Positions 13,138 to 33,425 of a stretch of 33,794 nucleotides of DNA are shown in pieces (the first letter of the stretch is position 1; each line of letters starts with the position of its first letter). Position numbers and translations under genes: made by a program. Source of the stretch: a virus. The notes beneath the pieces were generated by a model. It was not told the origin of the DNA, made no database searches, and worked only from the letters and a program-made list of their open reading frames with translations. The stretch is from the IMG/VR virus record IMGVR_UViG_3300031972_002994, positions 1 through 33,794 of that record. One strand, 5' to 3'.

Positions 13138-13491
13138 TCAGGCTGGGCGGAGGGAGACGCTGAGGGTCGCGAGCGCGGGGCGAGGCCGGTCGGTGCGCAC
13201 GACGTCCAACAGAAGCGAGGGCGCATGGGCGGCGGTGAACTGCAGCTGGACCCGGCGCAGGCGAATGCGCGGCTCATTGTTGAGCAGGGCCATGGCCGTG
13301 GCCGCGAAGATGCGGATCCGCGTCCGTGCGTTCAGCGGCTGATCGATCAGATCGGGCAGGTCAGAGCCGTAGGCCCGGCGGCCGATGCGCGCGTTCAAGG
13401 GTGTGGTCAGAATGTCGCCGATCGACTGCACCAGGTGCGTGTCGCTGTTCGGGTCGAGGGCGCGCCCGTTGTGACGGTTCAGGCCGGTCAT
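13138..13491 (-). CDS. W: Baseplate wedge protein W (gp25-like)
   Basis: A 117-residue protein of the gpW/gp25 baseplate wedge family. It carries the family motif SIGDILTTPLNARIGRRAYGSDLPDLID with the conserved R-x-x-YGS and the helix that nucleates sheath polymerisation, then RIRRVQ-like RIRLRRVQLQF. It overlaps V by 4 nt (ATGA). In P2 it sits between V and J; here the next downstream gene is FI. Confidence 0.92.
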   Translation of the reverse strand: MTGLNRHNGRALDPNSDTHLVQSIGDILTTPLNARIGRRAYGSDLPDLIDQPLNARTRIRIFAATAMALLNNEPRIRLRRVQLQFTAAHAPSLLLDVVRTDRPRPALATLSVSLRPA

Positions 13492-14048
13492 GGGCGGGGT
13501 TTGCCGGACACGCCCTGGCCCGCGGCGACGGAGCCATGCAGGTGGGTTTTCAGACTGATGTCGCCGGCCTTGACGTCGCCATCGGCGGCGATCGAGCCGG
13601 ACGTCTTCAAGTCGCCCTGGATGTGGACGTCTCCGCTCACGGTGACGCCTTGCGGCGCGGTGATGACGGCCGAGCCCGGCAGGTCGAAGTCGAGCCGGTG
13701 GGTCTCAGGATCGTATTTGATCACGGCCCCGTCCTTGAACCGGATGGCGACCGCCGCGCCGAGGAACAGTGGCGCAAAGACCGACGACGGGAGGCCGCCC
13801 AGGATCACCGCCTGTTCGACGTCTCCCTCAGAGGCCAACACCTGGACCTGTTCGCCCACCGTGGGGGGAAGCCAGATTTTCGTGTCGCCGGCGGCCATCA
13901 GCCAGTCGATCGGCGGGGTCAGCTCTTCGCCGAAGCGGACGACGGCCTTACCCGCCTGGAGATCGACCCTGTCGATCACACCCACGCGCGCCAGATTCCC
14001 GATCGTGAGATCGGTTTCGGCGTTAGACGTGGACGGGGCGCGGGTCAT
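13488..14048 (-). CDS. V: Baseplate spike protein V
   Basis: A 186-residue protein of the gpV family, the membrane-piercing tail spike. An OB-fold-like N-terminus (IGNLARVGVIDRVDLQAGKAVVRFGEELTPPIDWL) is followed by a beta-helical needle (VTVSGDVHIQGDLKTSGSI) and ends with an H-x-H iron-site motif in LKTHLHGSV. The ATG at 14048 is chosen; the longer frame to 14114 begins inside the Ogr-like dyad and is rejected. No Shine-Dalgarno is visible before this ATG, and it lies 58 nt from the dyad centre, so the mRNA may be leaderless. Confidence 0.92.
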   Translation of the reverse strand: MTRAPSTSNAETDLTIGNLARVGVIDRVDLQAGKAVVRFGEELTPPIDWLMAAGDTKIWLPPTVGEQVQVLASEGDVEQAVILGGLPSSVFAPLFLGAAVAIRFKDGAVIKYDPETHRLDFDLPGSAVITAPQGVTVSGDVHIQGDLKTSGSIAADGDVKAGDISLKTHLHGSVAAGQGVSGKPRP

Positions 14049-14093
14049 GCCGGCGGACGATGGCGCAGCGGCAAACGGCTTTCGCGGCGCGGC

Positions 14094-14118
14094 TGTTGTC
14101 AGACGCGCCCGCACAACA
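14094..14118 (-). promoter_or_regulatory. Ogr-type activator site upstream of V
   Basis: A dyad TGTTGT-N13-ACAACA (extended by C/G to 7-bp arms) centred at 14106. The 13-nt core on the plus strand is CAGACGCGCCCGC, identical to the site at 18237 and to the reverse complement of the one at 25885. The known Ogr/Delta sites are TGT...ACA dyads about 55 bp upstream of the start of transcription. That predicts initiation within a few bases of the V ATG at 14048. Confidence 0.85.
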
Positions 14119-14129
14119 GGACGAGGCGC

Positions 14130-14564
14130 TCAGTCGGCGCCGGTCAGGAGCTCGGGCGCCAGGGTCGGCCAGTCGATCGCCTCTGGAAAACCCGCCTGCT
14201 CAGGCACGTCGCGCAGCGCCTGGATGTGCTCCAAGACCAAGCGGAAATCCTCTGCGGTCAAGGTGGTGGTCAGGCCAAGGGCGAGTTCGTCGCGGTGCCG
14301 TTCGACCAGATAGCGGAGCCCGGCGATCTCCGCGTCCCGACGTCGGCGGGCCCAGGCCGCCAGAGTCTCCACCGAGGGCGACGGCGGATCGACGGCGGCG
14401 GGTGCGCCGTCCGGTCCGGCCTGCAGTATCTTGCCCGCCGAGACGGCGGCCATCAGGACGGCGTGGTCCTGGGGCGTGACCTCAACGATGTCGGCCGGCA
14501 GATCGGCGCTCCAGAGGCCGTCGTCATAGAAGGCGCCCGTCGCGCCGCTGAAGAAGAGGGTCAT
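14130..14564 (-). CDS. G: Tail fibre assembly protein (gpG-like)
   Basis: A 144-residue protein downstream of the tail fibre gene. The N-terminus MTLFFSGATGAFYDDGLW and the following PADIVEVT are typical of tail fibre assembly chaperones. The middle has a helical hairpin with RRRRDAEIAGLRYLVE, and the C-terminus resembles DUF4376-type ends (DWPTLAPELL). It would help fold or trimerise the fibre. Fifteen bases separate it from H. Confidence 0.75.
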   Translation of the reverse strand: MTLFFSGATGAFYDDGLWSADLPADIVEVTPQDHAVLMAAVSAGKILQAGPDGAPAAVDPPSPSVETLAAWARRRRDAEIAGLRYLVERHRDELALGLTTTLTAEDFRLVLEHIQALRDVPEQAGFPEAIDWPTLAPELLTGAD

Positions 14565-14579
14565 GATGCGCTCGGGAAA

Positions 14580-16691
14580 TCAAGCATAGGGATCGATGTA
14601 GCCGCCGCCGCCGCCGCCGCCGCCGCCGCTGCTGTAGGCGGGGTCCGGCGCGCCGTTGACGCGACCCAGGGCGATCCATTCGTAGCCGTCCAGGTTCCCG
14701 GCCGAGCCGTTGGCGCGGTTGGCGAAGAAGACGATGCGGTCCTGGTACCGACCGACGACCTGCATGTAGTAGTCGGAATTGACGTTGCTTCCGGGGTTGC
14801 GTGGCGTCGCCAGGGCGACCAGGCACCCGCCGCCGAAGGCGACCGGCAGGTAGGCGTGGGTCGGACCCTCGGCGATGTTGGAGGTCACGACGCCCCACTG
14901 GATCATCAGCCCCGTGCCGGGGACGACGGCGTAGCCGCTGGCGCCGATGGACGAGGCCGCATCGGCCGTGTGCAGGAAGGCATGGGACACCAGGCCGTCG
15001 ACGGTGGCGACGAACCGCGCGCCGTTCCAACCCATGACCATGGTGTGGGCGTTGCCGTCCGGGTTGACGATGGTGATCTTCGAACCCGGATCGAAGTTGG
15101 CGTCGCTCCACAGCCTCGCCCAATAGGGTTGGTGGTCGCGGGTGATCGCCATGCCGACCCACAAATCTGGCTTGGTGTCGGGATCGGTCGCCCGACCGAC
15201 ATAGACGCCGCCCCAGCCGCCGTTGTTGTCGCGCCGGCCCGTCTTCATGAAGTAGCCGTAGCCGCCGGGGCTCCAGGCGCTGTCCGGCGTCAGCATGGCC
15301 GTCCACCCGGTCGGCCGGTCGCCATAGTCCTGGTAGCTGTTCATCTTCACCAACGGCCCGGCTCCGACGCGGCCGAGGTTCGTTTCGGAGACGGAGACCT
15401 TGTCGGCCGGGTTGAAGGTGGCCGAAGTCCAGACCGTGCCGCCAGCAGAGATGAGCGGCGCGTTCGGCAGGACGTAGTTGAAGCCGTCGAAAACGAGGAA
15501 ATGGGCCAGGTCGCCCAGATAGACGACCCCACCGCCCGCGCCGTCGAGCACTCGCACGTCCGCAAAGGTCGCGCTTGTTCCGAGCGTGGCCTTGGTCGCC
15601 GGGTTGAAGTTGCCCGAATGCCAAACCTTGGACGCGATGCCGCCCAGCAGTTCGGTCACGTCGAAGAACAGGCCCCGCAAGGCGCCCGTGGTCTCGAAGA
15701 TGCGAAGCTTGTTCTTGTAGAGGTCGATCGCCACGTCCGCCTCAAAGGCCGTCTCGCTGGTCGGCCGCTTCAAGCGGACTTCGCCGCCTTCAGGCCCGCC
15801 GCCGCCTTCGAAGGTCGGGGTGTTGATCGGAGCCTTGCCCGCCAGGGCTGCGACGAGCCCGGTGATCTTCTCCATCGCCAGAGCCGGGATGCGGCCGACG
15901 TCGAAGACCCCAGAGGTGACGTCGCCCGCGCCATGTTCGTGGACCGTATTGGCCTTGCCCGCCAGGGCGTTTGCCAGTCCGGTGATCTTCTCCATCGCAA
16001 GGGCCGGGATGCGGCCGACGTCGAAGACGCCTGAGGTCACGTCGCCGGCGCCGTGCTGATGAACCGTAGGGGCCTTGCCGGCGAGAGCTTCGGGAAGGCC
16101 GTCGATGGCGGTCATGGCGTGGCGGTGGACGGCGGCCGCGAAGTTGCTCGCCCAGGACTGCAGCGTCTTCAGAAGGCCGAACGGGGTGACGACGAGGTCG
16201 GCGCGCGCGCCGGCGGCCGCCTCTTCCCAGGTCGCAAGTTCGACCACCCCCACCCGTTCCGTCGTCGCCTGCGGATTGATGAAGCCGGTCCCGCCGAACT
16301 GGATCGCCGCCGTGTCGATGGTGACCAGGGCGATGTCGGCCGACAGCAGGACCATGGCCCCGGCGCTCTTCTCCACGATCACGTCGGAGGCGCTGAAGAC
16401 GGCGAACAGAACGCCGGTGGACAGATAGAGGCCGAAGGCGCGGACCGAATAGACGTCGGCCGTCTCGTCATTGATGGTGACGTGGATGACGTCGTCGCCG
16501 ACGACGTCGCCGCCGAAGGTGGTGACGCGCTTGATTTCGCCCGGCAGGGCGGTGAGCCCCTTCAGAGAGCCGGCCGTGTGGAGGTTGGATATCCCGACAT
16601 GGGTGATGGTGACGGCCGAGGTTCCGGTATTCGGCGCATTGACCATGGCGGCGCGGCCGGCGTCGGTGATGGTGATCGTCAGTCCGGCCAT
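14580..16691 (-). CDS. H: Tail fibre protein H
   Basis: A 703-residue tail fibre. Residues 1-160 match the conserved P2-like fibre attachment domain (MAGLTITITDAGRAAMVNA, through IDTAAIQFGGTGFINPQATTERVGVVELAT). The shaft has 40-residue repeats (about 205-290) containing ALAGKAPTVHQHGAGDVTSGVFDVGRIPALAMEKITGL-like units, then further shaft repeats with VWHSGNFNP-type and W-SATFNP motifs. The C-terminus is presumably receptor-binding and ends with a run of nine glycines before YIDPYA. It lies between I and G. The receptor is unknown; the host is presumably related to the strain carrying the window. Confidence 0.92.
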   Translation of the reverse strand: MAGLTITITDAGRAAMVNAPNTGTSAVTITHVGISNLHTAGSLKGLTALPGEIKRVTTFGGDVVGDDVIHVTINDETADVYSVRAFGLYLSTGVLFAVFSASDVIVEKSAGAMVLLSADIALVTIDTAAIQFGGTGFINPQATTERVGVVELATWEEAAAGARADLVVTPFGLLKTLQSWASNFAAAVHRHAMTAIDGLPEALAGKAPTVHQHGAGDVTSGVFDVGRIPALAMEKITGLANALAGKANTVHEHGAGDVTSGVFDVGRIPALAMEKITGLVAALAGKAPINTPTFEGGGGPEGGEVRLKRPTSETAFEADVAIDLYKNKLRIFETTGALRGLFFDVTELLGGIASKVWHSGNFNPATKATLGTSATFADVRVLDGAGGGVVYLGDLAHFLVFDGFNYVLPNAPLISAGGTVWTSATFNPADKVSVSETNLGRVGAGPLVKMNSYQDYGDRPTGWTAMLTPDSAWSPGGYGYFMKTGRRDNNGGWGGVYVGRATDPDTKPDLWVGMAITRDHQPYWARLWSDANFDPGSKITIVNPDGNAHTMVMGWNGARFVATVDGLVSHAFLHTADAASSIGASGYAVVPGTGLMIQWGVVTSNIAEGPTHAYLPVAFGGGCLVALATPRNPGSNVNSDYYMQVVGRYQDRIVFFANRANGSAGNLDGYEWIALGRVNGAPDPAYSSGGGGGGGGGYIDPYA
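14601..14627. repeat. (GCC)9 microsatellite in the tail fibre gene
   Basis: Nine consecutive GCC triplets on the plus strand encode nine glycines (GGC) at the fibre C-terminus. Such tracts can change length by slippage in whole codons, so the glycine run may vary among relatives without breaking the frame. Confidence 0.9.
15832..16071 (-). repeat. 120-bp tandem repeat in the tail fibre shaft
   Basis: Two near-identical 120-bp units plus a partial third encode 40-residue repeats with the shared core GAGDVTSGVFDVGRIPALAMEKITGL. Differences are mostly synonymous. They could lengthen or shorten the fibre shaft by recombination. Confidence 0.85.
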
Positions 16692-16692
16692 G

Positions 16693-17253
16693 TCAGGCGG
16701 CCTCCTCGAGCTGCAGGCGGCGGTAGTGGGCCGGGCGCGCCCCGGCGACGATGCCGAGGGCGGCCTCGGCCTTCAGGCCCTGGGTGAAGGTGAAGTGAGA
16801 GCGCGCGGGCTTGGTCCTGGCGATCTCATCGATCACCTCGTCCACGAAACGCGCAGTGGCCGGCTCGCCGCCCTCACCCGTCAGGGTCAAGACCACTTCG
16901 AAGGTGTGGGGCGCGCCCGGCGGGTTCATCTGCCACGGCTCGCGGATGGCGATCTGACCGCCGAACGCCTGGACGACCTGACGCACGGAGGCTGCCGTTC
17001 CCTTGATGCGCTGGATGGCGATCGCCTGGGCCACAACGGCCCGCTTGATCGGTTCGGACCAGCCGGAGTTCCAACTGTCGATCGAGAGAGCGTAGGCGAG
17101 CCAAGGCAGGAGGTGGACCGGGCAACGCTCCGGGCTCCAAAGATCTCGCAGCGGAACCGGCGTTTCGTCGAGGCGGGCCGTGACGGCCTCGAGGGCTCGC
17201 TCGACGGCGGTGGCGTTGGGCGGCAGCAGGCTGGGTCGGGGCGTCGCCGTCAT
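16693..17253 (-). CDS. I: Baseplate / tail protein I
   Basis: A 186-residue protein of the P2 gpI family, a baseplate component at the wedge periphery. The start MTATPRPSLLPPNATAVERALE and the conserved LWSPERCPVHLLPWLAYALSIDSWN segment are diagnostic. The ATG at 17253 overlaps the J stop by 4 nt (ATGA); a longer frame to 17316 lies within J and is rejected. The gene ends two bases before the H start, as expected for a coupled cluster. Confidence 0.93.
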   Translation of the reverse strand: MTATPRPSLLPPNATAVERALEAVTARLDETPVPLRDLWSPERCPVHLLPWLAYALSIDSWNSGWSEPIKRAVVAQAIAIQRIKGTAASVRQVVQAFGGQIAIREPWQMNPPGAPHTFEVVLTLTGEGGEPATARFVDEVIDEIARTKPARSHFTFTQGLKAEAALGIVAGARPAHYRRLQLEEAA

Positions 17254-18191
17254 TCGCCCAGCCCCGCATGGATCACGTCGATCGCCAGGCAACGGGCAGC
17301 CTGGAGGCGGCTGCACACCACATTGGCGGCCGGTTCGATCAGTTCGACGTCCTGCACGCCCTCCGCCGCCAGGGCGGCGATGACTCCCGACCGTGTGACG
17401 TCTCGGCCGAGACGAAAGGCCCCCGCCAGATAGGCGTCCAGACGGGCGCGCGCCTCCTGGAGCACCACCTGGGCATCGGGACCGGCGAAGGTCGTGATCC
17501 TGGCGCTGATGGCGAAGGTCAGGATCTCGGCCGCCCGGACCATGACGTGGTCGGTCAAGGGGCGAACCCGCTCTGATCCCACAACGGACTCGACCGTCGT
17601 CAGGAGCGCCTCGGAGGGCACGCCGTCGCCCAGGCGAGACAGGACGGTCACCACCACGTCGCCGGGCGCGGGGCTGGTGCAGCTGGCGTCCAGCACATCG
17701 CCGGACGCACCCAAGGCATGGGAGACGTAGGCCCCTTCCGGTCCTGCGACCGAATAGGCTTCAGGCGCGAGGAGCGCGCGGCGACGCAAGGCTTCGTCCG
17801 ATTCCATCACCGCAGGGGTCTGGTTGACGGGATCGGCGGGCGTGACCACCAGGCGCTGGACGCCCAGCAGCGCGACCAGATTGTCCAGGTCCGCGCCATA
17901 GGCGCCGGCGATGGTGACGGCGCGCGCCGCATCATTGATCCGTTGGCGCAGGATCAGCTCGCGATAGGCCATGACCTCGATCAGCTTCACCAGGGGTTCG
18001 CTTCTCAGCGTCAGGACGGCCGTGAGGGCCTCGACCTGGTCCGGCGCAACGGCGCTGATGAACTGGAGGAAGACGGATTTGGCCTCGGCCACCAACTCCT
18101 CGAAGCTGAGCATCTCCACGACGGCCGGCATCGGCAGTTTGGACAGATCGACGGCGGTCGAGCCGCTGGCTTGGCCTGCATAGGTGGACAT
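17250..18191 (-). CDS. J: Baseplate assembly protein J
   Basis: A 313-residue gpJ baseplate wedge protein (gp6-like). The start is MSTYAGQASGSTAVDLSKLP, followed by MPAVVEMLSFEELVAEAKSVF and ELILRQRINDAARAVTIAGAYGADLDNLVALLGV, which are family-typical. The frame extends to 18257 only because it reads through the Ogr-like dyad. The ATG at 18191 has no Shine-Dalgarno and lies 58 nt from the dyad centre, as for V and P. It leads the J-I-H-G operon. Confidence 0.93.
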   Translation of the reverse strand: MSTYAGQASGSTAVDLSKLPMPAVVEMLSFEELVAEAKSVFLQFISAVAPDQVEALTAVLTLRSEPLVKLIEVMAYRELILRQRINDAARAVTIAGAYGADLDNLVALLGVQRLVVTPADPVNQTPAVMESDEALRRRALLAPEAYSVAGPEGAYVSHALGASGDVLDASCTSPAPGDVVVTVLSRLGDGVPSEALLTTVESVVGSERVRPLTDHVMVRAAEILTFAISARITTFAGPDAQVVLQEARARLDAYLAGAFRLGRDVTRSGVIAALAAEGVQDVELIEPAANVVCSRLQAARCLAIDVIHAGLGE

Positions 18192-18236
18192 GGCGAGGGT
18201 TGTCGCCGTGCCCTGCCCGACCATGCGACGACGCCC

Positions 18237-18261
18237 TGTTGTCAGACGCGCCCGCACAACA
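18237..18261. promoter_or_regulatory. Ogr-type activator site between J and R
   Basis: A TGTTGT-N13-ACAACA dyad centred at 18249 in the intergenic space between leftward J (start 18191) and rightward R (start 18320). The core CAGACGCGCCCGC has the same orientation as at V, so it points to J, whose ATG is 58 nt away. R lies 71 nt away in the other direction and has its own GGAG ribosome site. Whether the site also activates R is untested. Confidence 0.85.
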
Positions 18262-18319
18262 TGGCGAACTGCCCAGGACCGGACCCAGCCGCGAGGAATC
18301 CGGCAGCGGAGTAGCCCCG

Positions 18320-18832
18320 ATGAAAAAACCCGAAAGCCTGCTGGCCTGTTTGGCCGACGCCCTGGACGCCAAACATCACGTCAAGGGCGACACGTCGCGC
18401 CTGCAGATGGTCATCAGCAATCTGAGCCCCCAGGCCGACGCGCGGCCGGGATCGGGCTTCAGCCTGAGCTATACGCTTGAGATCAACCTGCCGGACTTCA
18501 AAGGCAATCCGATCGAAGTGATCATTCCCTTGCTGCAATGGCTCGAGCGATGGCAGCACGACCTGATCGCCAGCGCCGACAAGGCGGCCAAGGCGATCGA
18601 CATGACCTGTGTCCGCCTGGATGCGAACCGGTACGATCTCCATGCGGCGGTGAACCTGACAGAGGACTTCGGCTACGTGGCTCGTCCGGACGGCGCGGGC
18701 CATGACCTGGTCGCCCTGGAGCCGCCCCGCCCCATGGCGCTGGAGCGGGGGGCGCCGCTCCACGCCGTTTTCCTGGATGACGCCCTGGTCGTTCATTGCG
18801 CCGCCCATCCAGGCGAAGCGGTCGCACCCTGA
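18320..18832 (+). CDS. R: Tail completion protein R
   Basis: A 170-residue protein of the P2 gpR family, needed to finish the tail. The start MKKPESLLACLADALDAKHHVKGDTSRLQMVISNLSPQ matches; upstream in-frame sequence to 18200 is non-family and overlaps the promoter region. A GGAG ribosome site is 8 nt upstream. It and S are on the plus strand, opposite to the neighbouring J-I-H-G and lysis genes, unlike P2, where R and S follow the lysis genes in the same direction. Confidence 0.85.
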   Translation: MKKPESLLACLADALDAKHHVKGDTSRLQMVISNLSPQADARPGSGFSLSYTLEINLPDFKGNPIEVIIPLLQWLERWQHDLIASADKAAKAIDMTCVRLDANRYDLHAAVNLTEDFGYVARPDGAGHDLVALEPPRPMALERGAPLHAVFLDDALVVHCAAHPGEAVAP

Positions 18833-18842
18833 TCGCGACGCC

Positions 18843-19526
18843 ATGGAGGATCTGCAGCACCTTCACCAGCTGGCCGAGCAGATGCTGGAAAAGCTGGCGC
18901 CCGGCCAGCGCCGACGCATGCTGTTGCGCATGGCGCTGGAGATGCGGCGCGCCAACCAGCGACGGATGGCGCGCCAGGTCGCGCCGGACGGATCGCCCTG
19001 GGAGAAGCGGAAACCCCGCCCCAAGGCCAAGCCGGCCAGCCGGCCCGCCCGGTTCCTGTATCCCTCAAGCGGTTTCGGCGAGCCCCGTGTGGTGGACATG
19101 CGAAGCTGGATCGGTCGCGGCGACTATTTGATCGGTTTCGACCGCGAGGCCGGCGGCCTGCGGACATTCGAACGAGCCAAGATCGTGCGCTGGATCACGC
19201 CGCTGGGAACCGCCGGCGCGGACGGCGACCCAGCGCCGCCGTCGAAGGCGCGGCCGGCGCAGATGTTTCGCGGCCTTCGCTCCGGCCGCCATCTGAAGGC
19301 CGGGGCGGACGGAGACAGCGGCTGGATCGAATTCACCCAGCGGGCAAGCCGGATCGCCCTGATCCACCATGACGGCCGCCGCGACCGGGTCGCACCCGAC
19401 GGCCCCGAGGTTGATTATCCACGGCGGGAACTGATCGGCTTCGGCCGCGACGACGAAGCGCGCCTGGTCAATATGTTCATCGACGAGGCAAGCGACGCCT
19501 TGGGCTGGGGATCGCGGTCGTCTTAA
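18843..19526 (+). CDS. S: Tail completion / virion morphogenesis protein S
   Basis: A 227-residue gpS-family protein. The ATG at 18843 follows the R stop by 10 nt. The start MEDLQHLHQLAEQMLEKLAPGQRRRMLLRMALEMRRANQRRMARQVAPDGSPW is typical of the family. The central ~50 residues contain a disordered insertion (ITPLGTAGADGDPAPPSKARPAQMFRGLRSGRH). It is longer than the ~150 residues usual in P2. The end (LIHHDGRRDRVAPDG, then YPRRELIGF) is conserved. Confidence 0.85.
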   Translation: MEDLQHLHQLAEQMLEKLAPGQRRRMLLRMALEMRRANQRRMARQVAPDGSPWEKRKPRPKAKPASRPARFLYPSSGFGEPRVVDMRSWIGRGDYLIGFDREAGGLRTFERAKIVRWITPLGTAGADGDPAPPSKARPAQMFRGLRSGRHLKAGADGDSGWIEFTQRASRIALIHHDGRRDRVAPDGPEVDYPRRELIGFGRDDEARLVNMFIDEASDALGWGSRSS

Positions 19527-19892
19527 GGCTCCGTAGAGGCGGCGGCGCTGTCGTCATCTCAGCGCTAAGGTGGCCTGTACGGCACATTCCGCTGTGGCTC
19601 GTGAAGCGGACAAGCCGCCGTCTCGCCGTCCGGCCAAACGGCTGGGCAAGGACGCAGGTTGCAAAGGAATGGATTGATGGGGCCGGGATAAGCCTGGCGC
19701 GGACAATGGGTCGGACCGTGTCGCCAGATGTTCAGCTCATCGGAGTCCAGCGGCTTGCAACGACGCCGCCGCTTGGGTCCATCCCATACGAAAGGCGTAT
19801 CCTCTTCCAGACGCCCCCCGACATCATGGCTTGAATCCGGCCCTTACGTCGTCCTAGGTTGTACGTCCATCTATCCAAGCGCGCGGCGAGCC
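19527..19892. other. Gap between S and the 118-residue ORF
   Basis: About 366 bases with no assured gene. A GTG-started frame at 19601-19834 (77 codons, VKRTSRRLAVRPNG...) is open but shows no family and no ribosome site, so I leave it uncalled. No repeat or clear terminator was found. The segment may contain the promoter for the following small gene. Confidence 0.4.
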
Positions 19893-20249
19893 ATGTCCGT
19901 ATTTCTGATCAGCGACGGCGACCTGGTGCGACTGGCCCGCTTCGCGGCCGCGCACATGCCTTTGCCCAGCGGCCTTTGCGCGGACACATTGGCTGCGCGG
20001 TTCAGGGCCGCCAACATCCAAGCTTGGCGCGACCAATATCCAGACGCAGCCAATCCCGCCCTGGCGGCGACGCCGACCGCATGCGCGCCGAAAGACGCGC
20101 CCGGCTCATCGCGAGAGATGCTCGAGATCCTGCGCACCACTCGCGACCTGCGCTATAATGCGGCGATCGAGCCGCGGACCCTGCTTTCGGGGATCCTGAT
20201 CCGGGCGGCTCGGCGCGCCGGTCAACTCCGGATGGGAACGCCGCATTGA
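19893..20249 (+). CDS. Hypothetical 118-residue protein
   Basis: The ORF starts MSVFLISDGDLVRLARFAAAHM and shows regular high-GC codon use. It has helical, Ala-rich content and a conserved-looking end (LRTTRDLRYNAAIEPRTLLSGILI). No membrane segment or motif is recognised. A longer frame to 19728 has low-complexity, unlikely sequence. It overlaps a short membrane-peptide ORF downstream by a TTGA junction, so the two may be co-translated. It sits in the R-S strand segment and may be an extra phage gene rather than a tail component. Confidence 0.55.
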   Translation: MSVFLISDGDLVRLARFAAAHMPLPSGLCADTLAARFRAANIQAWRDQYPDAANPALAATPTACAPKDAPGSSREMLEILRTTRDLRYNAAIEPRTLLSGILIRAARRAGQLRMGTPH

Positions 20250-20350
20250 AGACCAGGTCGCTTTTGGTCGTTGTGCTGGCAGGCGGAGGATTGGCGATCT
20301 GGATTCTGGTCGCCGTGGCGGGATGGCTCCTGGCCCGGATGTTTAGCTAG
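20246..20350 (+). CDS. 34-residue single-span membrane peptide
   Basis: A TTG-started ORF (MKTRSLLVVVLAGGGL...) encoding one hydrophobic helix and ending ARMFS. It overlaps the preceding stop by three bases (TTGA), the same arrangement seen at the endolysin start. It converges with the Rz1-like gene, sharing the bases CTAG at their stops. It could be an extra lysis or membrane factor. The short length makes it uncertain. Confidence 0.45.
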   Translation: MKTRSLLVVVLAGGGLAIWILVAVAGWLLARMFS

Positions 20351-20664
20351 GGCTCAGGAGCGGCCATTGGCGCCTTAAGCCAGGCCGCCTCATCCTCATG
20401 TTCGCCGTCGTGGACGTCCACGGCCAGCTGGCGCGCGGCGTCACAGGCGAGGATGGCGGCGCCCCGCGCCTGGACGAGCGCCTCGAGATCGGCCCAGGTG
20501 GCGTTCGCCGGCAGGCGCGGCAGGACACAGGCGGCCCTAGCGGTCGCGGGCATCTCCCGCTGGGGCGGCGTCGGCAGGGCAGACGGCCGGACGGATCCGG
20601 CACAGGCGCTCATCAGCGCGGCGCAGGCGGTCAAGGCGATCGGCGTCAAGCGGTTGGTTCGCAT
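20347..20664 (-). CDS. Outer-membrane spanin, Rz1-like lipoprotein
   Basis: A 105-residue lipoprotein: MRTNRLTPIALTACAALMSA then Cys21 as the lipidation residue, followed by a Pro-rich mature start. It begins inside the Rz-like gene and overlaps it by 128 bp in another frame, the usual i-spanin/o-spanin nesting. With the partner it would fuse the inner and outer membranes at lysis. Its tail beyond the Pro-rich region is longer than in lambda Rz1. Confidence 0.75.
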   Translation of the reverse strand: MRTNRLTPIALTACAALMSACAGSVRPSALPTPPQREMPATARAACVLPRLPANATWADLEALVQARGAAILACDAARQLAVDVHDGEHEDEAAWLKAPMAAPEP

Positions 20665-20986
20665 CGGGAGCAGCTCTGGCTTGGGTGATGAAATCGGCGG
20701 CGACGACCTGGGCCTGGCGCACCTGATCGCGCGTCGCCTCGACGCGGCGCGTGGTGTCCCGCTCGCCTGCGACCTCCCGCGCCCGGGCGCCGGCGTCCAG
20801 GGTGGCGAGGACAGCCCTGTCTTCAGCTCGATCAGCGCGCCTTCGCGTCAGGTCCAGGGGGTCGAAGCGGAAGCCCAGGCCGCCCAGGGCGACGACGACC
20901 AGCCAGAGGAAGGCGATGAGCGCCAGGCCGGACAGGGCCCAGCCCCAGGGCGAGGCGAAGTTGAAGGTGCGGGTCCGGGTCTTCAC
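20537..20986 (-). CDS. Inner-membrane spanin, Rz-like
   Basis: A 149-residue protein with one N-terminal membrane helix (residues ~15-38, WALSGLALIAFLWLVVVALGGL) and a long periplasmic charged helix (RRRADRAEDRAVLATLDAGARARE...), typical of i-spanins. It overlaps the endolysin stop by 4 nt (ATGA) and hosts the o-spanin start. Confidence 0.75.
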   Translation of the reverse strand: MKTRTRTFNFASPWGWALSGLALIAFLWLVVVALGGLGFRFDPLDLTRRRADRAEDRAVLATLDAGARAREVAGERDTTRRVEATRDQVRQAQVVAADFITQARAAPDANQPLDADRLDRLRRADERLCRIRPAVCPADAAPAGDARDR

Positions 20987-21366
20987 GGGAAGGCCCTCCG
21001 GTCCAGTTCGAAGTGTGGGCCGTCCCGAAGGGTTTTCCAGTCTCCGCCCCAGACGATGGGCGTCTCGAGCTCCGTCGCAGCCGCCTTGAAGGCGGCCGCG
21101 ATCCGGCCGTAGAGAGGCCAGTCCCAGCGGACCTGTCCATCCACCAGCGCCGCGACATCCACGGCATGACCGGTCAAGTGGCGTGAGCGTTGGGTGCGGC
21201 TGGCGCCGGCGGCGACCAGGGCGGCCTGTCGATCGGACGAGCGGAGCCCTTCGGTGATCATGAAATCGACCGGACTCTTGACGATCGCCCGTTCGACGAC
21301 GGCGACCAAGGCGGGGTGGACGCCGGTCAGGTGCGCCCTGGAGCGGGAGGACAGGCGAAAGCTCAA
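20983..21366 (-). CDS. Endolysin, M15-type peptidase
   Basis: A 127-residue peptidoglycan peptidase of the M15 (VanY / L-alanyl-D-glutamate) family. The zinc-binding motifs are present: S-R-H-L-T-G-H-A-V-D-V (His and Asp) and a C-terminal DGPHFEL. No signal peptide is present, so a holin must release it. The TTG start overlaps the upstream stop as TTGA; the longer frame to 21603 reads out of frame through the holin-like gene and is rejected. P2 itself uses a different endolysin (gene K), so this is a module exchange. Confidence 0.82.
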   Translation of the reverse strand: MSFRLSSRSRAHLTGVHPALVAVVERAIVKSPVDFMITEGLRSSDRQAALVAAGASRTQRSRHLTGHAVDVAALVDGQVRWDWPLYGRIAAAFKAAATELETPIVWGGDWKTLRDGPHFELDRRAFP

Positions 21367-21641
21367 GACGATTCTCCAGACGGTCGGTTGAACGGGAGGC
21401 GGATCCGCAGCTCGGCGAATATCCGCGCCAGCTCGGCCGCGCTGGGCGCGAGCAGGTAATAGGTGACGACCAAGGCGAGCAGGCCGATGATCCAGAGGGC
21501 GACGAGTTGCAGATCTTCCGCCGGCATCCGACGGACCAGCCACCACAGCAGGGCTATCGCTGCGATGGTCAGCGCCCAGGTGTAGAGGCGGCGATACAGC
21601 CACCTGCTCTCAGGCAGCGGGTCTTGCGGATCGGGCGTCAT
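21363..21641 (-). CDS. Putative holin, two membrane helices
   Basis: A 92-residue protein with two hydrophobic segments (TWALTIAAIALLWWLV and LVALWIIGLLALVVTYYLL), a short charged N-terminus and a basic tail. It starts by ATGA overlap with the preceding gene and leads directly into the endolysin start, the place of a holin. No family assigned from sequence. Confidence 0.65.
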   Translation of the reverse strand: MTPDPQDPLPESRWLYRRLYTWALTIAAIALLWWLVRRMPAEDLQLVALWIIGLLALVVTYYLLAPSAAELARIFAELRIRLPFNRPSGESS

Positions 21642-21874
21642 CGCCGCTCCTCCCGCTCGAGCTGGGCGCGAATCCAGGAGACGTCGGTCTGAATCTTGAC
21701 CAGGTCGCCGCGGCGCAGCGGCGCGGTCGTTTCGTGAAGCTCGGTCGTGCGCGCCTCGACCTTGGCGCCCCAGATGACGATTCCCGCCAGCTGGGCCGCC
21801 AGAGCCAGGCAGAAGGCCAAGGCCGCCCAGGACGGGAGGGCGATGGGTTGGGACTGCAGGGGTTGGGTGGTCAT
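21638..21874 (-). CDS. Small membrane protein of the lysis cluster
   Basis: A 78-residue protein with one hydrophobic helix (SWAALAFCLALAAQLAGIVIW) and a helical cytoplasmic or periplasmic tail (RRGDLVKIQTDVSWIRAQLERE), which resembles DUF2730-like phage proteins. The ATG at 21874 comes just after the X stop. It may be an antiholin or holin partner of the two-helix protein downstream. This role is inferred from position. Confidence 0.55.
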   Translation of the reverse strand: MTTQPLQSQPIALPSWAALAFCLALAAQLAGIVIWGAKVEARTTELHETTAPLRRGDLVKIQTDVSWIRAQLEREERR

Positions 21875-21876
21875 AG

Positions 21877-22095
21877 TCAGTCCCACAGATTGATCGTGGG
21901 CGCCGTCGCCGGCGCCGTCGCGAGCGTGGGGATGACCACAGGCGTGCCACGCGGCAGGAAGGGGCCGTGGTCCGCCAGGTTGGGATTGGCGCGCAGCACC
22001 TGCTCGACCGCTGGCGCGCTGCGGCGCAGGTTGCGCCAGCAGATCGCATCGACCGTGTCGCCTTCCAGGGCGGTGACAGTGAGAGGGCCGGCCAT
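21877..22095 (-). CDS. X: Phage tail protein X
   Basis: A 72-residue gpX-family protein with a LysM-like fold (VTALEGDTVDAICWRN... then LRANPNLADHGPFLPRGTPVVIP). It overlaps the L stop by one base, as in the L-X pair of P2. Confidence 0.88.
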   Translation of the reverse strand: MAGPLTVTALEGDTVDAICWRNLRRSAPAVEQVLRANPNLADHGPFLPRGTPVVIPTLATAPATAPTINLWD

Positions 22096-22583
22096 CAGAG
22101 CGCCTCGGCCATGATGCGCGGACGGCCGAGGAAGTCCCGAACCGCATAGGAGACGTTGCGAAGATGGGTATCGACGTCGGCCCGCAGCGCCTCCGCCCGG
22201 TCCGCGCCGGCGCCGGACAGCTGCGGCCCCAAGGCGCGCTCGCCGACGTCGGCCGCCACGACGGAATAGACCGCGCGAAACCAGCGCAGCTCATAGTCCG
22301 ACCGACCATCTACCGTCATCCGGCCGGGCACGTCGGCCAGGCGCGCATAGCCGGCGGCTTCCTGCTGGGCGCGCCAAGCCGCGAGTTCATGGGCGATGTC
22401 CAGCATGGCCTGGCGGACGGCGTCGCGCAGTCGTTCGGTTTCGCCGCTGGGCACACGGACGGCGTCGCGAACGGCGATCAGATTTACGGACGGCCACCAG
22501 CCGTCGCAGGCGATCTCGGCGGCCGCCGGATAGGTCGGGGCGGCCTGGTCGTCGCTGCCGGGAGGGGGGAAAGAGATGTTCAT
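22095..22583 (-). CDS. L: Head completion protein L
   Basis: A 162-residue gpL head completion/stabilisation protein. Conserved elements are WWPSVNLIAVRDAVRVPSG and the C-terminal SYAVRDFLGRPRI. The start (MNISFPPPG) lies in the left arm of an 11-bp inverted repeat. A gap of 161 bp, the longest in the head operon, separates it from M. Confidence 0.88.
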   Translation of the reverse strand: MNISFPPPGSDDQAAPTYPAAAEIACDGWWPSVNLIAVRDAVRVPSGETERLRDAVRQAMLDIAHELAAWRAQQEAAGYARLADVPGRMTVDGRSDYELRWFRAVYSVVAADVGERALGPQLSGAGADRAEALRADVDTHLRNVSYAVRDFLGRPRIMAEAL

Positions 22584-22637
22584 GGCGCTGGAGCGGTCCG
22601 GTTCTGCTGTGTCGCCTGTGGCGACGACATCTCTTTC
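22569..22637 (-). promoter_or_regulatory. 11-bp inverted repeat at the L start
   Basis: GAAAGAGATGT (22569-22579) and ACATCTCTTTC (22627-22637) are perfect complements, with a nested GTCGCC-TGT-GGCGAC hairpin (22611-22625) between them. In the minus-strand mRNA the arm at 22569-22579 covers codons 2-5 of L, so the fold would place the start codon in a closed loop. It may regulate translation of L or process the M-L message. Confidence 0.55.
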
Positions 22638-22744
22638 GTTCGGTCGCGCCGGCTACGGCGGTGGGGGGCTGGTCGGACGCTGCAGACGGGCGAACCCGCT
22701 GTTGTCGGGCCAGCCCCGCCGCCGAGCGCCGGGGGGCGAGCGGG

Positions 22745-23758
22745 TCAGCCGGCTCCTTCCGGAGACGGCGGGTTCTGGGGAGCGCTTGCGCCCTCGATGG
22801 CGGACGCGAGGGCCTGGACGGCGTCAGCGGCGGAGACGTCCTGGGGGAGATCGTCCTCCGGCTTGCCCAGGACCTTCTTCAGCTTGGACACCTCGCCCTT
22901 GACGCCGGCGCGGGGGTCCAGCTTCATGGCGGTCATGTAGCGGCGCAGCGTCGCCTCCTGGCGCTGGCGAACGTCTTCTTCGTCTTCCAGATCGGCGCCC
23001 GCCATGATGGCCTTGCCGATCGCCTTCTGCAGCTTGGCGGTGACCTCGTCGGGCATGTCCGCATCGACGGTGACGATCAGATCCTCGAGCATGGGCAGGA
23101 CCGCATGCGGGAAAGGCTCGGCTTCCGGGTCGGCCAGGTCGTAGGCGGCGATGGCCGCTTCAGCGATCTGTTCGACGATGAAGACTGCCGGGGTCCGCTT
23201 GACGTGAGCCGGCATCTCCAGACCGTAGCGGAGGACATGCTCGGCCATGGGCAGGGCCGTCAGATAATCGCCGATGTCGATCGTCCACATCAGGATGGTG
23301 GTGAAGATCGAGTCCAGCGGGCCGCGATCGCCGCGGCCGCCCGCCAGAACGCCGTCACACCAGCCGCGATAGTTTGGGACCAACTGACGCTTCAGCTCGA
23401 TCTTGCGGCTCTGGGCCTGGATCGCCTTCAGCTTGCGCTTGTCGTCCTGCAGCATGAGCAGGGTCTTGGCGGCCTCGCTTTCGAGATAGGGGTCGTTGGC
23501 GGCCTCGACGTCCAGATGAACGCCCGAGGCGGCAAGGATGGCGCCGGACGTGCTCGCCACCAGGAAGGCGTGTCGGCGCGCCGCAGGTGAAATCCTCTCG
23601 ACCCGGATCGGAGGGACCACCCGATCGGGCGACTGCGCGGGAACGATCACGACCTTCTGTTTAGGGCGCGCGACGTCGGCGGCCGCTTCGACCGCCTCGC
23701 GGCGGCGGGCTTCAGCCCTGGCCTTCGCCTGGGCCGCGATGCTCATCGTCGATTCCAT
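22745..23758 (-). CDS. M: Terminase small subunit / endonuclease M
   Basis: A 337-residue gpM-family terminase subunit. The conserved block includes LVPNYRGWCDGVL, then IFTTILMWTIDIGDYLTALPMAEHVLRYGLEMP, then ADMPDEVTAKLQKAIG. The N-terminal ~80 residues (AQAKARAEARRREAVEAA...) and a long C-terminal acidic/Pro tail make it larger than P2 M (~247). A second Met (MSIAAQAK) at 23746 is an alternative start. Confidence 0.88.
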   Translation of the reverse strand: MESTMSIAAQAKARAEARRREAVEAAADVARPKQKVVIVPAQSPDRVVPPIRVERISPAARRHAFLVASTSGAILAASGVHLDVEAANDPYLESEAAKTLLMLQDDKRKLKAIQAQSRKIELKRQLVPNYRGWCDGVLAGGRGDRGPLDSIFTTILMWTIDIGDYLTALPMAEHVLRYGLEMPAHVKRTPAVFIVEQIAEAAIAAYDLADPEAEPFPHAVLPMLEDLIVTVDADMPDEVTAKLQKAIGKAIMAGADLEDEEDVRQRQEATLRRYMTAMKLDPRAGVKGEVSKLKKVLGKPEDDLPQDVSAADAVQALASAIEGASAPQNPPSPEGAG

Positions 23759-23792
23759 GATCCGGGTGCTTTCAAGTGTCGTTTGCCGGCGC

Positions 23793-24836
23793 TCAGGGCT
23801 CGGCCGTGGCGCCGATCTGGATGTTTTCGATCAGCAGCGCCCAGTCATGATCCTCGAAGACATAGTCCTCGTTCACGGACTCGAAGGTCTCGATCCGGTT
23901 GCGTCTGGCGTTGTCGACGATGGTTCGACGACGGGTGCCCTCCTGCTCATAGATCGAGAGGTTGTCGAAGGGCGTGATGAGGATGGAGAAGGGTCGCATA
24001 TAGGGGACGCGCGCGGCCGGGCGTCCGCCCAACTCCTTCTTCGACATCAGCACTTCAAGCGCCAGGCGTTCCGTGGGCGCCTCTTCCCGATCGACCATCG
24101 GGAAGTATTTCTCATGCAGGAGACCGTCGCCGACGATACAGTTCAGGTCGGTCGAGGCGCGCACCCATTCAGGCAGGAAGGAGTGGATGGCGTCGTAGAC
24201 CAGGGCGTCCAGATTCCGATAGTCGCCCGCGCCGGCGGCTGGATCCACGATGATCTTGCCGTCCTCCTTGGCCCCCTCGGCGAAGACGTGGGTCGGCTTG
24301 TTCTCACGCAGTTTTTGGAGCCAGCCCTTGTTCACGTCTTGCAGGAGGGGATTGTTGACCCGATTAGTCTGGGGCGCGGCCGAGGTGCCGTTGAAGCCGA
24401 TGATGATCCGGTCGCGGGCCTGCTGTTTGACGATCTGATCGCGCAGCCGGGTCTGGAAGTTGGGGAACTTGGCCCAGAGATCCAGCTTGGCGTACTTCAC
24501 GTGGGTGTCGGAATCCGTCTGGCGACACAGGAAGGTGTCGTTGTCCAGGGTGGTCGGATCCTGCGTCTCGCGGTCCTGATTGTCGGTGTTCGTTCGACCC
24601 GCCAGGGTGCCGCCGATGCCCAGGCCGATCTTCTCACCCGATTGCTCCGGCACCGGGACGATGTTGATCAGCTTCAGGAAGCCGGACGACTCCTGCTGGC
24701 GCTCGATCAAGGTCTGCTGAACGCTGGGCGCGACGGCGAAGGACTTCTCGGCGTGCACGGTCGTTTGGAGGACGCCGTTCAGCTCCGCCTGCCGGTCGAG
24801 ATATTCGTTGAAGAGTTGGCGGGTGTCGTTGCGCAT
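23793..24836 (-). CDS. N: Major capsid protein N
   Basis: A 347-residue P2 gpN capsid protein (HK97-like fold family). It has the typical MRNDTRQLFNEYLDRQAELNGV start, DIVPV-like INIVPVPEQSGEKIGLG segment, a TRLRDQIVKQQARDRIIIGFNGTSAA central motif, and the NEDYVFEDHDWALLIENI end. It follows O with a short gap. Fully intact. Confidence 0.95.
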   Translation of the reverse strand: MRNDTRQLFNEYLDRQAELNGVLQTTVHAEKSFAVAPSVQQTLIERQQESSGFLKLINIVPVPEQSGEKIGLGIGGTLAGRTNTDNQDRETQDPTTLDNDTFLCRQTDSDTHVKYAKLDLWAKFPNFQTRLRDQIVKQQARDRIIIGFNGTSAAPQTNRVNNPLLQDVNKGWLQKLRENKPTHVFAEGAKEDGKIIVDPAAGAGDYRNLDALVYDAIHSFLPEWVRASTDLNCIVGDGLLHEKYFPMVDREEAPTERLALEVLMSKKELGGRPAARVPYMRPFSILITPFDNLSIYEQEGTRRRTIVDNARRNRIETFESVNEDYVFEDHDWALLIENIQIGATAEP

Positions 24837-24894
24837 CAGTCAGGTTCCGTCGGCGATCGGCAAAAGGGCGTAGAGGCAGGGCGAGGCGTGGTGA

Positions 24895-25794
24895 TCAGCA
24901 GTCCGTCTTTTCCACGCCGCCGCCTGGGCCGGTGGCGGCCGGGCGGGCGCGGTATTGAGTGTCGTGCGTCTTTTCGACGGATCCCTTCAGGGCGGCGTAT
25001 TCACTCTCGAGCTTGGCGAAGCGCGCGCCGGCGTCCGTGGCGGATTGGGTCAAAGCCTGGTTGAAGGACTGGCTCAGTTCCTTCATGCCGGCCGTGAAGG
25101 CTGCGGCCAGTTCGGCCATGCCCTGTCCGCTGGCGGTTTCCTGCTGGACCGGCGTCTTGGGCTCGTCGCCCTTCAGCGCCTTGGCGAACTTTGCGGCGAT
25201 CCGATCAATGATGGTCTCGGAGGAGTCCGACGGGTCGGCCGCATCCTGGAATTCGATGGTGGTGGCGAAGGCGGCCGAGAAGAGGCAGGTCTCGTGCTTC
25301 TTGCGGCTGTCCAGGTCGGCCTTGCGGATCTTGGCGAAGGCGTCGTCCGTGCGCGCCGAGAACTGCAGGGCCTCGGTGCCCAAGGAGGCCGGGCTGTCGG
25401 TCGCGGCCAGGCCCATCAGATAAGCCTTGCCGGTTCCGGAGAAGTTCGGCTCGACCTCGATGGAGGTGAACTTTTTCTGGTCGGCGGCCAGATAGCCCTG
25501 GAGGGTTTCGTTGCCCTGGATCTGGGCATAGAGGGCGACGCGCTTTTCGGTCTTTCCCGCGATCTCGATCTCGTCTTCCTGGACGCGCAAGGCGATGACG
25601 TCGCCGAGCGCCGGAAAGGGGCCGGCGGCCGAGGCGTTGCGGAAGTGCTCGACGTTGACGCGGGCCGTGTAGGTCGCCGGGTTGTAGTTGGCGGCCATGT
25701 CGCGCAGCCACTGCGGTTCGATCGTGCGCCCGTCCGAGGCCGTCAGGCCGGCGACGGCGATACGGGTGAACTTGGTCGTCAGCGTCTTGGACAT
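24895..25794 (-). CDS. O: Capsid scaffold and protease O
   Basis: A 299-residue gpO, combining an N-terminal serine protease with a C-terminal scaffold. The likely catalytic triad is D21, H50 (in VNVEHFRN) and S111 (in FTSIEV), close to P2 D19/H48/S107. The C-terminal ~100 residues are helical, with a Gln-rich stretch and GPGGGVEKTDC at the end. A GAGG ribosome site precedes the ATG at 25794, 103 nt from the Ogr-type dyad. It heads the O-N-M-L-X-lysis operon, divergent from P. Confidence 0.93.
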   Translation of the reverse strand: MSKTLTTKFTRIAVAGLTASDGRTIEPQWLRDMAANYNPATYTARVNVEHFRNASAAGPFPALGDVIALRVQEDEIEIAGKTEKRVALYAQIQGNETLQGYLAADQKKFTSIEVEPNFSGTGKAYLMGLAATDSPASLGTEALQFSARTDDAFAKIRKADLDSRKKHETCLFSAAFATTIEFQDAADPSDSSETIIDRIAAKFAKALKGDEPKTPVQQETASGQGMAELAAAFTAGMKELSQSFNQALTQSATDAGARFAKLESEYAALKGSVEKTHDTQYRARPAATGPGGGVEKTDC

Positions 25795-25884
25795 CGGGCC
25801 TCGGGCGATCTGGGCGGCAGCCGGGCGACCCGGCCAATGAGGCCGCAGATCACCGCCTGATCGCCCGTTCTCTCAAGGCGGGCC

Positions 25885-25909
25885 TGTTGTGCGGGCGCGT
25901 CTGACAACA
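25885..25909. promoter_or_regulatory. Ogr-type activator site between O and P
   Basis: A TGTTGT-N13-ACAACA dyad centred at 25897. Its core is the reverse complement of those at 14094 and 18237, so it points rightward to P. The P ATG at 25955 is exactly 58 nt from the centre, without a Shine-Dalgarno. O (leftward, 103 nt away) would have a leader of ~50 nt if the same site serves it. Confidence 0.88.
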
Positions 25910-25954
25910 CCCGACCGTCAGCCGCCGACGAGCGGCCCGGTAGCGTCCGCCGCG

Positions 25955-27847
25955 ATGAGGACGCGGCCGAAAAAGACCGAAACGCCGAGCGGCGGCAGCG
26001 ACGACCTGGGCGCGCTGCTGGCCGCCATGGGCGGTTTCGCCTTCCCCGTCGCCGCCATGCTGGATGAGCGGCGGGCGGCCAAGTTCCTGTACTGGTCGAT
26101 GTGGCGGCCGACGGACATCGCCCGCCTGCTGAACGTGTCCGAGAACACCGTCGCCAGCTGGAAGAGCCGCGACAAGTGGGACGAGGCCGGGCCGATCGAA
26201 CGGATGGCGGGCGTCACAGAGGCCCGATACGTCGCCCTGACCATGAAGGCCACGAAGACCGGGGCCGATCTCAAGGAGATCGACGCCCTGCTCCGCGCGG
26301 CCGAGCGCCTGGCCCGGCTGCGCCGCTATATGGACGGCGGCCACGAAGGCGACATCAACCCCAAGGTCGCCAACCGCAACGCCGGGCCGAAGAAGAAGCC
26401 CGAGCGGAACCGCATCACGCCCGACCAGGTCGAGATCCTGAAGGCGACGATGCTGAAGCGGATGTTCGGCTATCAGCGGACCTGGTGGTCGAAGTCGGAT
26501 CTGCGGTCACGCATGATCCTGAAGAGCCGCCAGATCGGCGCGACCTATTATTTCGCGCTGGAGGCCCTGATCAAGGCGCTGGAGACCGGCCATAATCAGA
26601 TCTTTCTGTCCGCGTCCAAGAACCAGGCGAACGTCTTCCGCGGCTATATCCGCGCCTTCGTTCTGGAGGTCATCGGCGTCGAGCTGACCGGCGATCCGAT
26701 CGTCATCGACCGGGGGCATGACGAGGACGGGGTTCTGCTGGAGCAGCCGCAGCTGATCTTTCTGGGCACCAATGCGCGGACGGCCCAGGGCTATCACGGG
26801 GATTTCTACTTCGACGAATTCTTCTGGGTCTTCGGCTTCGAGACGCTGAAGAAGGTCGCCAGCGGCATGGCGATGCAGAAGAAGTATCGCAAGACCTACT
26901 TCAGCACGCCCAGTTCGGTCACCCACGAAGCCTACGCCTTCTGGACGGGTCTGGAATGGAACCGCAAGCGCGCCAAGGACCGGCGCCGCGATTTCGACGT
27001 CAGCTGGGCCGCCACCAAGGACGGCCAAATGGGGGCCGACCGGATCTGGCGTCACACGGTCACGATCGAGGACGCCGAGGCGCAGGGCTGCGACCTGTTC
27101 GACATCGAGGATCTGCGCGACGAGTATTCGGCGCCGGAGTTCGACAATCTGCTGATGTGCGGGTTCGTCGACGACACCCTGAGCGTCTTCCCCATGACGT
27201 CGCTGTCGCCCTGTATGGTCGACGGCGAGGACGCCTGGCCCGACGTCGATATGGCGCGGATCTTCCTGGGCGCCGGCCGACCCTACGCCGGCGAGGTCTG
27301 GCTGTCCTATGATCCCAACGGCAACGGCGAGAACGCGGACGCGGCCGGCCTGGTCGTGGTGGCGCCGCCGCTGAAGCCCGGCGGCAAGTTCCGCGTGCTG
27401 GAGCGCCAGCAGTTCAAGGGATCGGACTTCACCGAGCAGGCCGAGGTGATCCGCGCCTATACCAAACGCTATCGGGTGACGAAGATCGACATCGACGGCA
27501 CCGGCATCGGCGGCGCCGTGGCGCAGCTGGTCCGGGCCTTCTTCCCCCAGATGACCGAGCATCGCTATGACCCGGTTCTGAAGACCCAGATGGTCTACAA
27601 GGCCCTGGACGTCATCGGGAAGCACCGACTGGAATACCACGTCGATTTCCGCGACCTGACCGGCGCCCTGCTGTCGATCCGGCGAACGATGACCGCCAGC
27701 GGCCGCCACGTCACCTATGAGGCGAGCCGCACCAAGGACAGCGGCCACGCCGACCTGGCCTGGGCTCTTTTCCAGGCCCTGTTCAACGAACCCCTCGCCG
27801 CCGGCATCGGCGGCGCCACCCGATCCAGCGTGGAGATCTCACAATGA
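25955..27847 (+). CDS. P: Terminase large subunit P
   Basis: A 630-residue gpP terminase. An N-terminal helix-turn-helix (WRPTDIARLLNVSENTVASWKSRDKW) is followed by the ATPase with a Walker A-like K190-S-R-Q-I-G-A-T197 and Walker B-type F-Y-F-D287-E288. The C-terminal RNase H-like nuclease has D453 in LSYDPNG and the DIDGTGIGGAVAQLV segment. The ATG at 25955 is chosen; the frame extends to 25889 only across the dyad. Q overlaps by ATGA. Packages DNA from cos. Confidence 0.93.
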   Translation: MRTRPKKTETPSGGSDDLGALLAAMGGFAFPVAAMLDERRAAKFLYWSMWRPTDIARLLNVSENTVASWKSRDKWDEAGPIERMAGVTEARYVALTMKATKTGADLKEIDALLRAAERLARLRRYMDGGHEGDINPKVANRNAGPKKKPERNRITPDQVEILKATMLKRMFGYQRTWWSKSDLRSRMILKSRQIGATYYFALEALIKALETGHNQIFLSASKNQANVFRGYIRAFVLEVIGVELTGDPIVIDRGHDEDGVLLEQPQLIFLGTNARTAQGYHGDFYFDEFFWVFGFETLKKVASGMAMQKKYRKTYFSTPSSVTHEAYAFWTGLEWNRKRAKDRRRDFDVSWAATKDGQMGADRIWRHTVTIEDAEAQGCDLFDIEDLRDEYSAPEFDNLLMCGFVDDTLSVFPMTSLSPCMVDGEDAWPDVDMARIFLGAGRPYAGEVWLSYDPNGNGENADAAGLVVVAPPLKPGGKFRVLERQQFKGSDFTEQAEVIRAYTKRYRVTKIDIDGTGIGGAVAQLVRAFFPQMTEHRYDPVLKTQMVYKALDVIGKHRLEYHVDFRDLTGALLSIRRTMTASGRHVTYEASRTKDSGHADLAWALFQALFNEPLAAGIGGATRSSVEISQ

Positions 27848-28929: not shown

Positions 28930-28954
28930 TGTTGTCAGATGCACCCGAACAACA
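28930..28954. promoter_or_regulatory. Fourth Ogr-type dyad after Q
   Basis: TGTTGT-N13-ACAACA with core CAGATGCACCCGA, three differences from the other sites, starting four bases after the Q stop. Its orientation matches the V and J sites on the plus strand, that is leftward, but no leftward gene starts 58 nt away. Rightward, com begins 199 nt from its centre. It may activate com/methyltransferase expression with a leader, or be a relic. Confidence 0.7.
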
Positions 28955-33314: not shown

Positions 33315-33425
33315 CGCTTAAACGAAAAAGGCGGCCGGGCGAAGCACCTGGCTCCAACGACCTGCTAAGGCAAGTCTCCCAACCGCGAGGTTGATATATA
33401 AGCCAGCGGGTTAAGCAATCAACAA

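Follow-up and report, generated by a model that had tools for sequence, protein, structure and literature searches.

The late promoters of coliphage P2 (PP, PO, PV and PF) go with a zinc-finger activator, Ogr, and a dyad about 55 nt from the transcription start; a single site between P and O fires both ways, and the start of V is annotated on the first base of its ATG. All this resembles what is seen or predicted in the P2-like prophage of Caulobacteraceae, of the Brevundimonas type, described here, an isolated IMG/VR virus record (IMGVR_UViG_3300031972_002994) of 33,794 nt, the whole of which is called the window below. However, the coliphage consensus is TGT-N12-ACA, P of P2 has a 23-nt leader, and V and J form one operon in P2, whereas they belong to two in the window. 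The Stenotrophomonas phage Smp131 has the same operon split as the window (PP', PO', PJ' and PV') as well as an Ogr homologue, but P2-like sites are only proposed there and leaders are not mentioned in the accessible text of that report (PMC3931495). The motif TGTTGT-N13-ACAACA was proposed for Ogr in the Ralstonia phages phiRSY1 and phiRSA1 and is matched exactly in the window; in contrast to the present proposal, the accessible text on these phages suggests neither a fixed spacing nor a leaderless start (PMC5694545).

Leaderless mRNAs, with AUG at the 5' end and no Shine-Dalgarno sequence (SD), as predicted for the window, are known from Caulobacter crescentus, where 375 of them are translated as well as SD-led ones; these are, however, messages of host genes and not bound to one activator (PMC4117421).

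In the window and in many relatives, a dyad is located 56-60 nt before the ATG of the first gene of late operons, an arrangement that, judged from the sequences, very probably yields messages beginning at the start codon. The Ogr activator class and the exact dyad are already known, but a spacing-locked leaderless architecture of Ogr late promoters appears to be undescribed: a literature search found neither a fixed activator-to-ATG spacing nor leaderless late operons in P2-like phages, the original P2 promoter papers, which might mention a leaderless V mRNA, being outside its scope.

Predicted activator dyads and gene starts in the window

The features of the window that matter for this question are the following.

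6002..6301, minus strand: Ogr/Delta-type zinc-finger activator with an exact CX2CX22CX4C pattern, downstream of D
13488..14048, minus strand: gene V (baseplate spike, PF04717), predicted to be leaderless, ATG 58 nt from the dyad centre
14057..14062, minus strand: -10-like hexamer CATCGT, 8 nt before the V ATG, assigned from sequence
14094..14118, minus strand: predicted activator dyad of the V operon (V W FI FII E T U D), TGTTGTGCGGGCGCGTCTGACAACA reading toward V, centre 14106
17250..18191, minus strand: gene J (baseplate wedge, PF04865), predicted to be leaderless, ATG 58 nt from the dyad centre
18199..18204, minus strand: -10-like hexamer GACAAC, 7 nt before the J ATG, assigned from sequence
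18237..18261, no strand assigned: predicted J/R activator dyad between J (minus) and R (plus), centre 18249
18320..18832, plus strand: gene R (PF06891), divergent from J, ATG 71 nt from the J/R dyad, SD GGAG
24895..25794, minus strand: gene O (capsid scaffold/protease, PF05929), divergent from P, ATG 103 nt from the P/O dyad, SD GAGG
25885..25909, no strand assigned: predicted P/O activator dyad between O (minus) and P (plus), centre 25897
25941..25946, plus strand: -10-like hexamer TAGCGT, 8 nt before the P ATG, assigned from sequence
25955..27847, plus strand: gene P (terminase large subunit), predicted to be leaderless, ATG 58 nt from the dyad centre

Genes P, J, V, O, R, S, D and I were identified by Pfam, and among the named relatives a Brevundimonas intermedia prophage is closest, with 88% identity in the P protein. 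A pattern search of the window gave four perfect copies of TGTTGT-N13-ACAACA (14094-14118, 18237-18261, 25885-25909 and 28930-28954). With up to two mismatches allowed there are five matches, compared to 0.22 expected, and none of 100 shuffles reached five. An imperfect dyad at 22605-22629 (two mismatches) was discarded, since neither the spacer nor the distance from gene L is suitable.

The original prediction, made from the sequence of the window alone, listed three of the perfect copies correctly and overlooked the one at 28930-28954. It had also described a common core and a common orientation of the three dyads toward V, J and P, and this was borne out by perfect matches: the asymmetric N13 core, GCGGGCGCGTCTG toward the gene, is oriented identically relative to all three genes, and V (14048, minus), J (18191, minus) and P (25955, plus) all have the A of their ATG 58 nt away from the centre of the dyad. 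The claim of exactly 58 nt holds for these three starts, but not across the relatives, where the distance is 56-59.5 nt.

As had been predicted too, SD matches of at least 4 nt are absent at the V, J and P starts of the window. Since roughly half of the window's remaining late genes and 75.4% of the C. crescentus genes (PMC4117421) have no SD either, its absence is by itself weak evidence. The J dyad is the sole dyad upstream of the divergent gene R and the P dyad is the sole one upstream of the divergent gene O. The SDs of R and O (GGAG and GAGG) are placed at a suitable distance from the start, and the predicted leaders of the R and O mRNAs have lengths of about 12-16 nt and 45-48 nt, respectively. 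The first 40 nt of the coding region fold less strongly than internal stretches with a similar G+C content (-5.4 versus -10.4 kcal/mol). Such an unstructured 5' end is expected of leaderless mRNAs, but bacterial starts of all kinds commonly show it.

The Ogr/Delta gene (PF04606, E 9.5e-17) is encoded near D, the dyads head late operons, and P and O diverge from a common site, all of which is typical of late promoters of the P2 type. The strict coliphage form TGT-N12-ACA was not found, the inner pair in the window being TGT-N13-ACA. By its form, the window dyad is a variant of the P2-type site and not the coliphage site itself. Among 16 prophages, divergence of Ogr tracks divergence of the half-sites (Mantel r 0.61, with 3 of 5000 permutations as high and phage phylogeny uncorrected), which favours Ogr as the protein that binds the dyads but falls short of proof.

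Spacing between dyad and start codon in related phages

We searched 390 Caulobacteraceae genomes and examined 20 prophage regions. Three of these (L300, L304 and L306) have no recognisable dyad and were excluded, and their J starts show good SD pairing energies; the panel thus consists of 17 prophages and the window. Its dyad arms were derived from dyads with a start 54-80 nt away, and no dyad was scored for J of L289, which has a GTG start. The alphaproteobacterial panel is made up of a single family, because a class-wide search of the alphaproteobacteria outside Caulobacteraceae gave only two near-full-length P homologues, both of them distant.

In the 17 prophages, the sequence of the dyad is phage-specific and yet common to the late promoters within each phage. 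The TGTTGT..ACAACA types are found in Brevundimonas prophages, while L301 has CTGTCA..TGACAG, L302 TTGTAAAT..ATTTACAA, L303 TTGTGAT..ATCACAA and L305 CCGTCAG..CTGACGG, and the spacer is N13 or N14 among the relatives. Despite these changes, the comparison of related prophages that the original prediction had proposed revealed a conserved spacing: in 46 of the 48 P, J and V promoters of the panel (P 18/18, V 13/13, J 15/17), the dyad centre and the ATG are 56-59.5 nt apart, although these counts are not independent, as the prophages are related to one another. Both exceptions are J genes with an SD, at 69 nt in L302 (GGAG) and at 77 nt in L303 (AAGGAG). Only three of the 46 promoters with the ATG at 56-59.5 nt have an SD-like match of at least 4 nt, so that an AUG start and the lack of an SD, as expected of leaderless mRNAs, are the rule here. 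When ATGs in any frame are counted, the window of 56-59 nt contains one in 51 of 54 promoters and every other 4-nt window gives 0-11; six of the 54 were added after the spacing had been seen, and without them the count is 46 of 48. In L293 and L295, J begins at a residue different from that in the window, and yet its ATG keeps a distance of 58.5 nt to the dyad. The promoters with a longer spacing carry SDs; across the panel, O starts 91-111 nt from the dyad, mostly with an SD of at least 4 nt.

Upstream of the ATG, positions -14 to -8 have an A+T content of 0.47 in the panel, versus 0.18 in the rest of the 32 upstream nucleotides, and the best 7-nt A+T window among 2000 shuffles reached 0.34. 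This is the place where a -10 element is expected for transcription starting at the ATG. The -10-like hexamers of the window match the consensus poorly.

Six further open reading frames of 113-553 aa have an ATG 55-57 nt from a dyad (L297, 17011; L298, 5284; L302, 5589; L303, 4419; L295, 5025; L299, 4105). Several of them are on the opposite side of the dyad from J, and they are likely to be leaderless late genes.

Outside Caulobacteraceae, in a set of mostly Pseudomonas and xanthomonads with some other genera, P has an in-frame ATG 55.5-60 nt from the dyad in 29 of 32 non-redundant loci. The other three (Acinetobacter and related genera) have it at 79-81 nt, as in P2, where the P start codon is 79 nt from the activator centre when computed from the record. 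J usually has a longer leader in this set, being located at 74-104 nt in 11 of 17 loci; in the other six it is found at 56-58 nt, and two of these (L090 and L091) are Brevundimonas-like contigs. The start codons cluster around 57 nt or else are 69 nt or more away, and hardly any fall between, as would be expected if the transcript start is fixed and the leader either absent or of the size needed for an SD. In the Pseudomonas phage Sirocco (L333, OR683410), P at 5169 (minus) has a GTG as its annotated start, at a distance of 36 nt to the dyad, and an in-frame ATG is present at 57 nt. This annotation is probably wrong, the GTG being upstream of any plausible transcript start.

Probable start sites of the late messages

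In the P2 record, the region between P and O contains a single activator site (3057-3087), from whose centre the start toward P is 56 nt away and the start toward O 55 nt; the V start coincides with the first base of the V ATG, and F starts 57-59 nt from its activator centre. In the record of phage 186, pJ starts 58.5 nt from the B site. Given this range of 55-59 nt for P2 and 186, the leaders in the window and its relatives should have about 0-4 nt, and those of genes with the ATG at 58 nt about 0-3 nt; for P2 this calibration is record annotation with a spread of 55-59 nt, from sites with a different spacer, and a leader of 1-4 nt cannot be told from none. The step from an Ogr site to a start about 55 nt away, and from there to an ATG at the 5' end, which the original prediction had taken, is supported by these distances. 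It is also backed by the ogr gene, by the spacing that is kept while the dyad changes, by the -10-like stretch and by the SDs at longer spacings.

From the sequence comparisons, we infer that Ogr binds the dyads, where transcription starts and that translation is leaderless. Ogr (6002-6301) would bind the dyad and bring the host RNA polymerase to a weak -10 element. The first transcribed base would be 55-59 nt away from the centre of the dyad and would coincide with the P, J or V ATG or be removed from it by about 4 nt at most. The mRNAs led by these genes would then be translated leaderless and without an SD, a mode in routine use by Caulobacter ribosomes. The same dyads would also fire oppositely toward O and R and give SD-bearing leaders. 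We are fairly confident that the P, J and V mRNAs are leaderless in this sense, with no more than about 4 nt in front of the ATG.

It is conceivable that the dyads are Ogr sites but that initiation occurs 15-40 nt upstream of the ATG, which would result in leadered non-SD mRNAs. Most C. crescentus genes have no SD and yet have a leader (PMC4117421), and lack of an SD is frequent at the other late genes of the window, both of which would fit. However, initiation would have to occur 18-43 nt from the dyad centre, as opposed to 55-59 nt in P2 and 186, and neither the ATG held at 56-59.5 nt despite the changes in the dyad nor the A+T stretch at -14 to -8 would be explained; we therefore regard short or medium leaders as unlikely. 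It is much less probable still that the start codons are misplaced and the true ones located downstream, behind SDs and ordinary leaders. In-frame downstream ATGs do exist in J (+60) and P (+72), and the N-terminus of P cannot be aligned to distant homologues. The original prediction had named downstream starts with ribosome sites as evidence that would speak against it, but the ATGs at J +60 and P +72 have no SD, and protein-like conservation begins just after the 58-nt ATG in J and V. Among close relatives, the codon-position bias of substitutions starts right after this ATG in both genes and is absent upstream; the differences to L006 by codon position are 0/0/5 in J and 0/1/7 in V, and those upstream are without phase bias. 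A further ATG upstream of J, 25 nt from the dyad, was discarded, since it precedes any plausible transcript start and is missing in L006, L007 and L288.

The dyad is longer than the TGT-N12-ACA of P2 and its binding by Ogr is predicted, so the dyads might also be sites of another regulator, for instance a repressor, or another DNA element, with a spacing that was inherited and not selected. Against this stand the position of the dyads at the head of late operons, the exact match to the Ogr motif proposed for phiRSY1 and phiRSA1 (PMC5694545), the presence of ogr and the correlation between Ogr and half-site sequences. Moreover, shared ancestry leaves unexplained why the distance stays constant through N13 and N14 spacers and differing dyads, and we consider this explanation to have very little chance of being correct.

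If the P, J and V messages are indeed leaderless, the start codons of these genes could be read from the DNA without experiments, and some public annotations, like that of P in Sirocco, would be wrong. A start codon, a DNA-binding protein and the site that this protein binds would be linked in their evolution. In addition, a leaderless and an SD-led operon would form a matched pair wherever both are fired from one activator site, which would be a clean natural test of how well leaderless mRNAs compete late in infection, in alpha- as well as gammaproteobacteria. Only tentatively, one could go further and suppose that P2-like phages follow a design rule of leaderless initiation, either ancestral or recurrent, in which one activator site sets the stoichiometry of the particle via the type of leader. 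The geometry of the activator would fix the transcription start and the start codon of the low-copy terminase/portal and baseplate operons, and the high-copy scaffold/capsid operon fired from the same dyad would keep its SD leader. This speculation fits the pattern of leaderless terminase and baseplate operons and a leadered scaffold/capsid operon, together with a leadered tail sheath in P2 and Sirocco.

The fourth dyad and other loci in the window

Two features beyond gene Q concern the perfect dyad that was missing from the original list.

28930..28954, no strand assigned: fourth dyad, a perfect match directly downstream of Q
29141..29326, plus strand: Com-like zinc ribbon (PF10122), 199 nt beyond the fourth dyad

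The fourth dyad is kept in L088/L005 and in L008/L288, which B. intermedia VKM B-1499 carries, and is weaker in L293. No ATG of a long open reading frame was found at about 58 nt on either side of it. The Com-like gene is followed by a DNA methyltransferase in the window, similar open reading frames are present in L088 and L293, and the block between the dyad and com is conserved across L008, L088 and L293. This block is possibly a cos-bearing region or a leader. By inference, com and the methyltransferase are likely to be expressed late from the fourth dyad, on a message whose leader of about 140 nt runs across the conserved block; 28930-29326 is a candidate for an Ogr-driven late DNA-modification operon.

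In the methyltransferase region itself (29339-30247), the homology to C5-cytosine methylases spans just the first half of the family profile, and L008 and L293 have another open reading frame in its place (KPVAPYIGGKRNLARRL, adenine methyltransferase-like). The difference may reflect either an exchange of modules or a truncated gene.

At the far end of the window, a DUF3800-VI RNA motif (Rfam RF02915, 42.7 bits) at 33332-33385 (minus) is located directly upstream of a DUF3800 gene at 32586-33314 (minus). The region 201-5695 encodes a double-HATPase protein (201-2789), two small open reading frames and an Eco57I-type methylase (4037-5695), and this cluster looks like a defence island adjoining the prophage.
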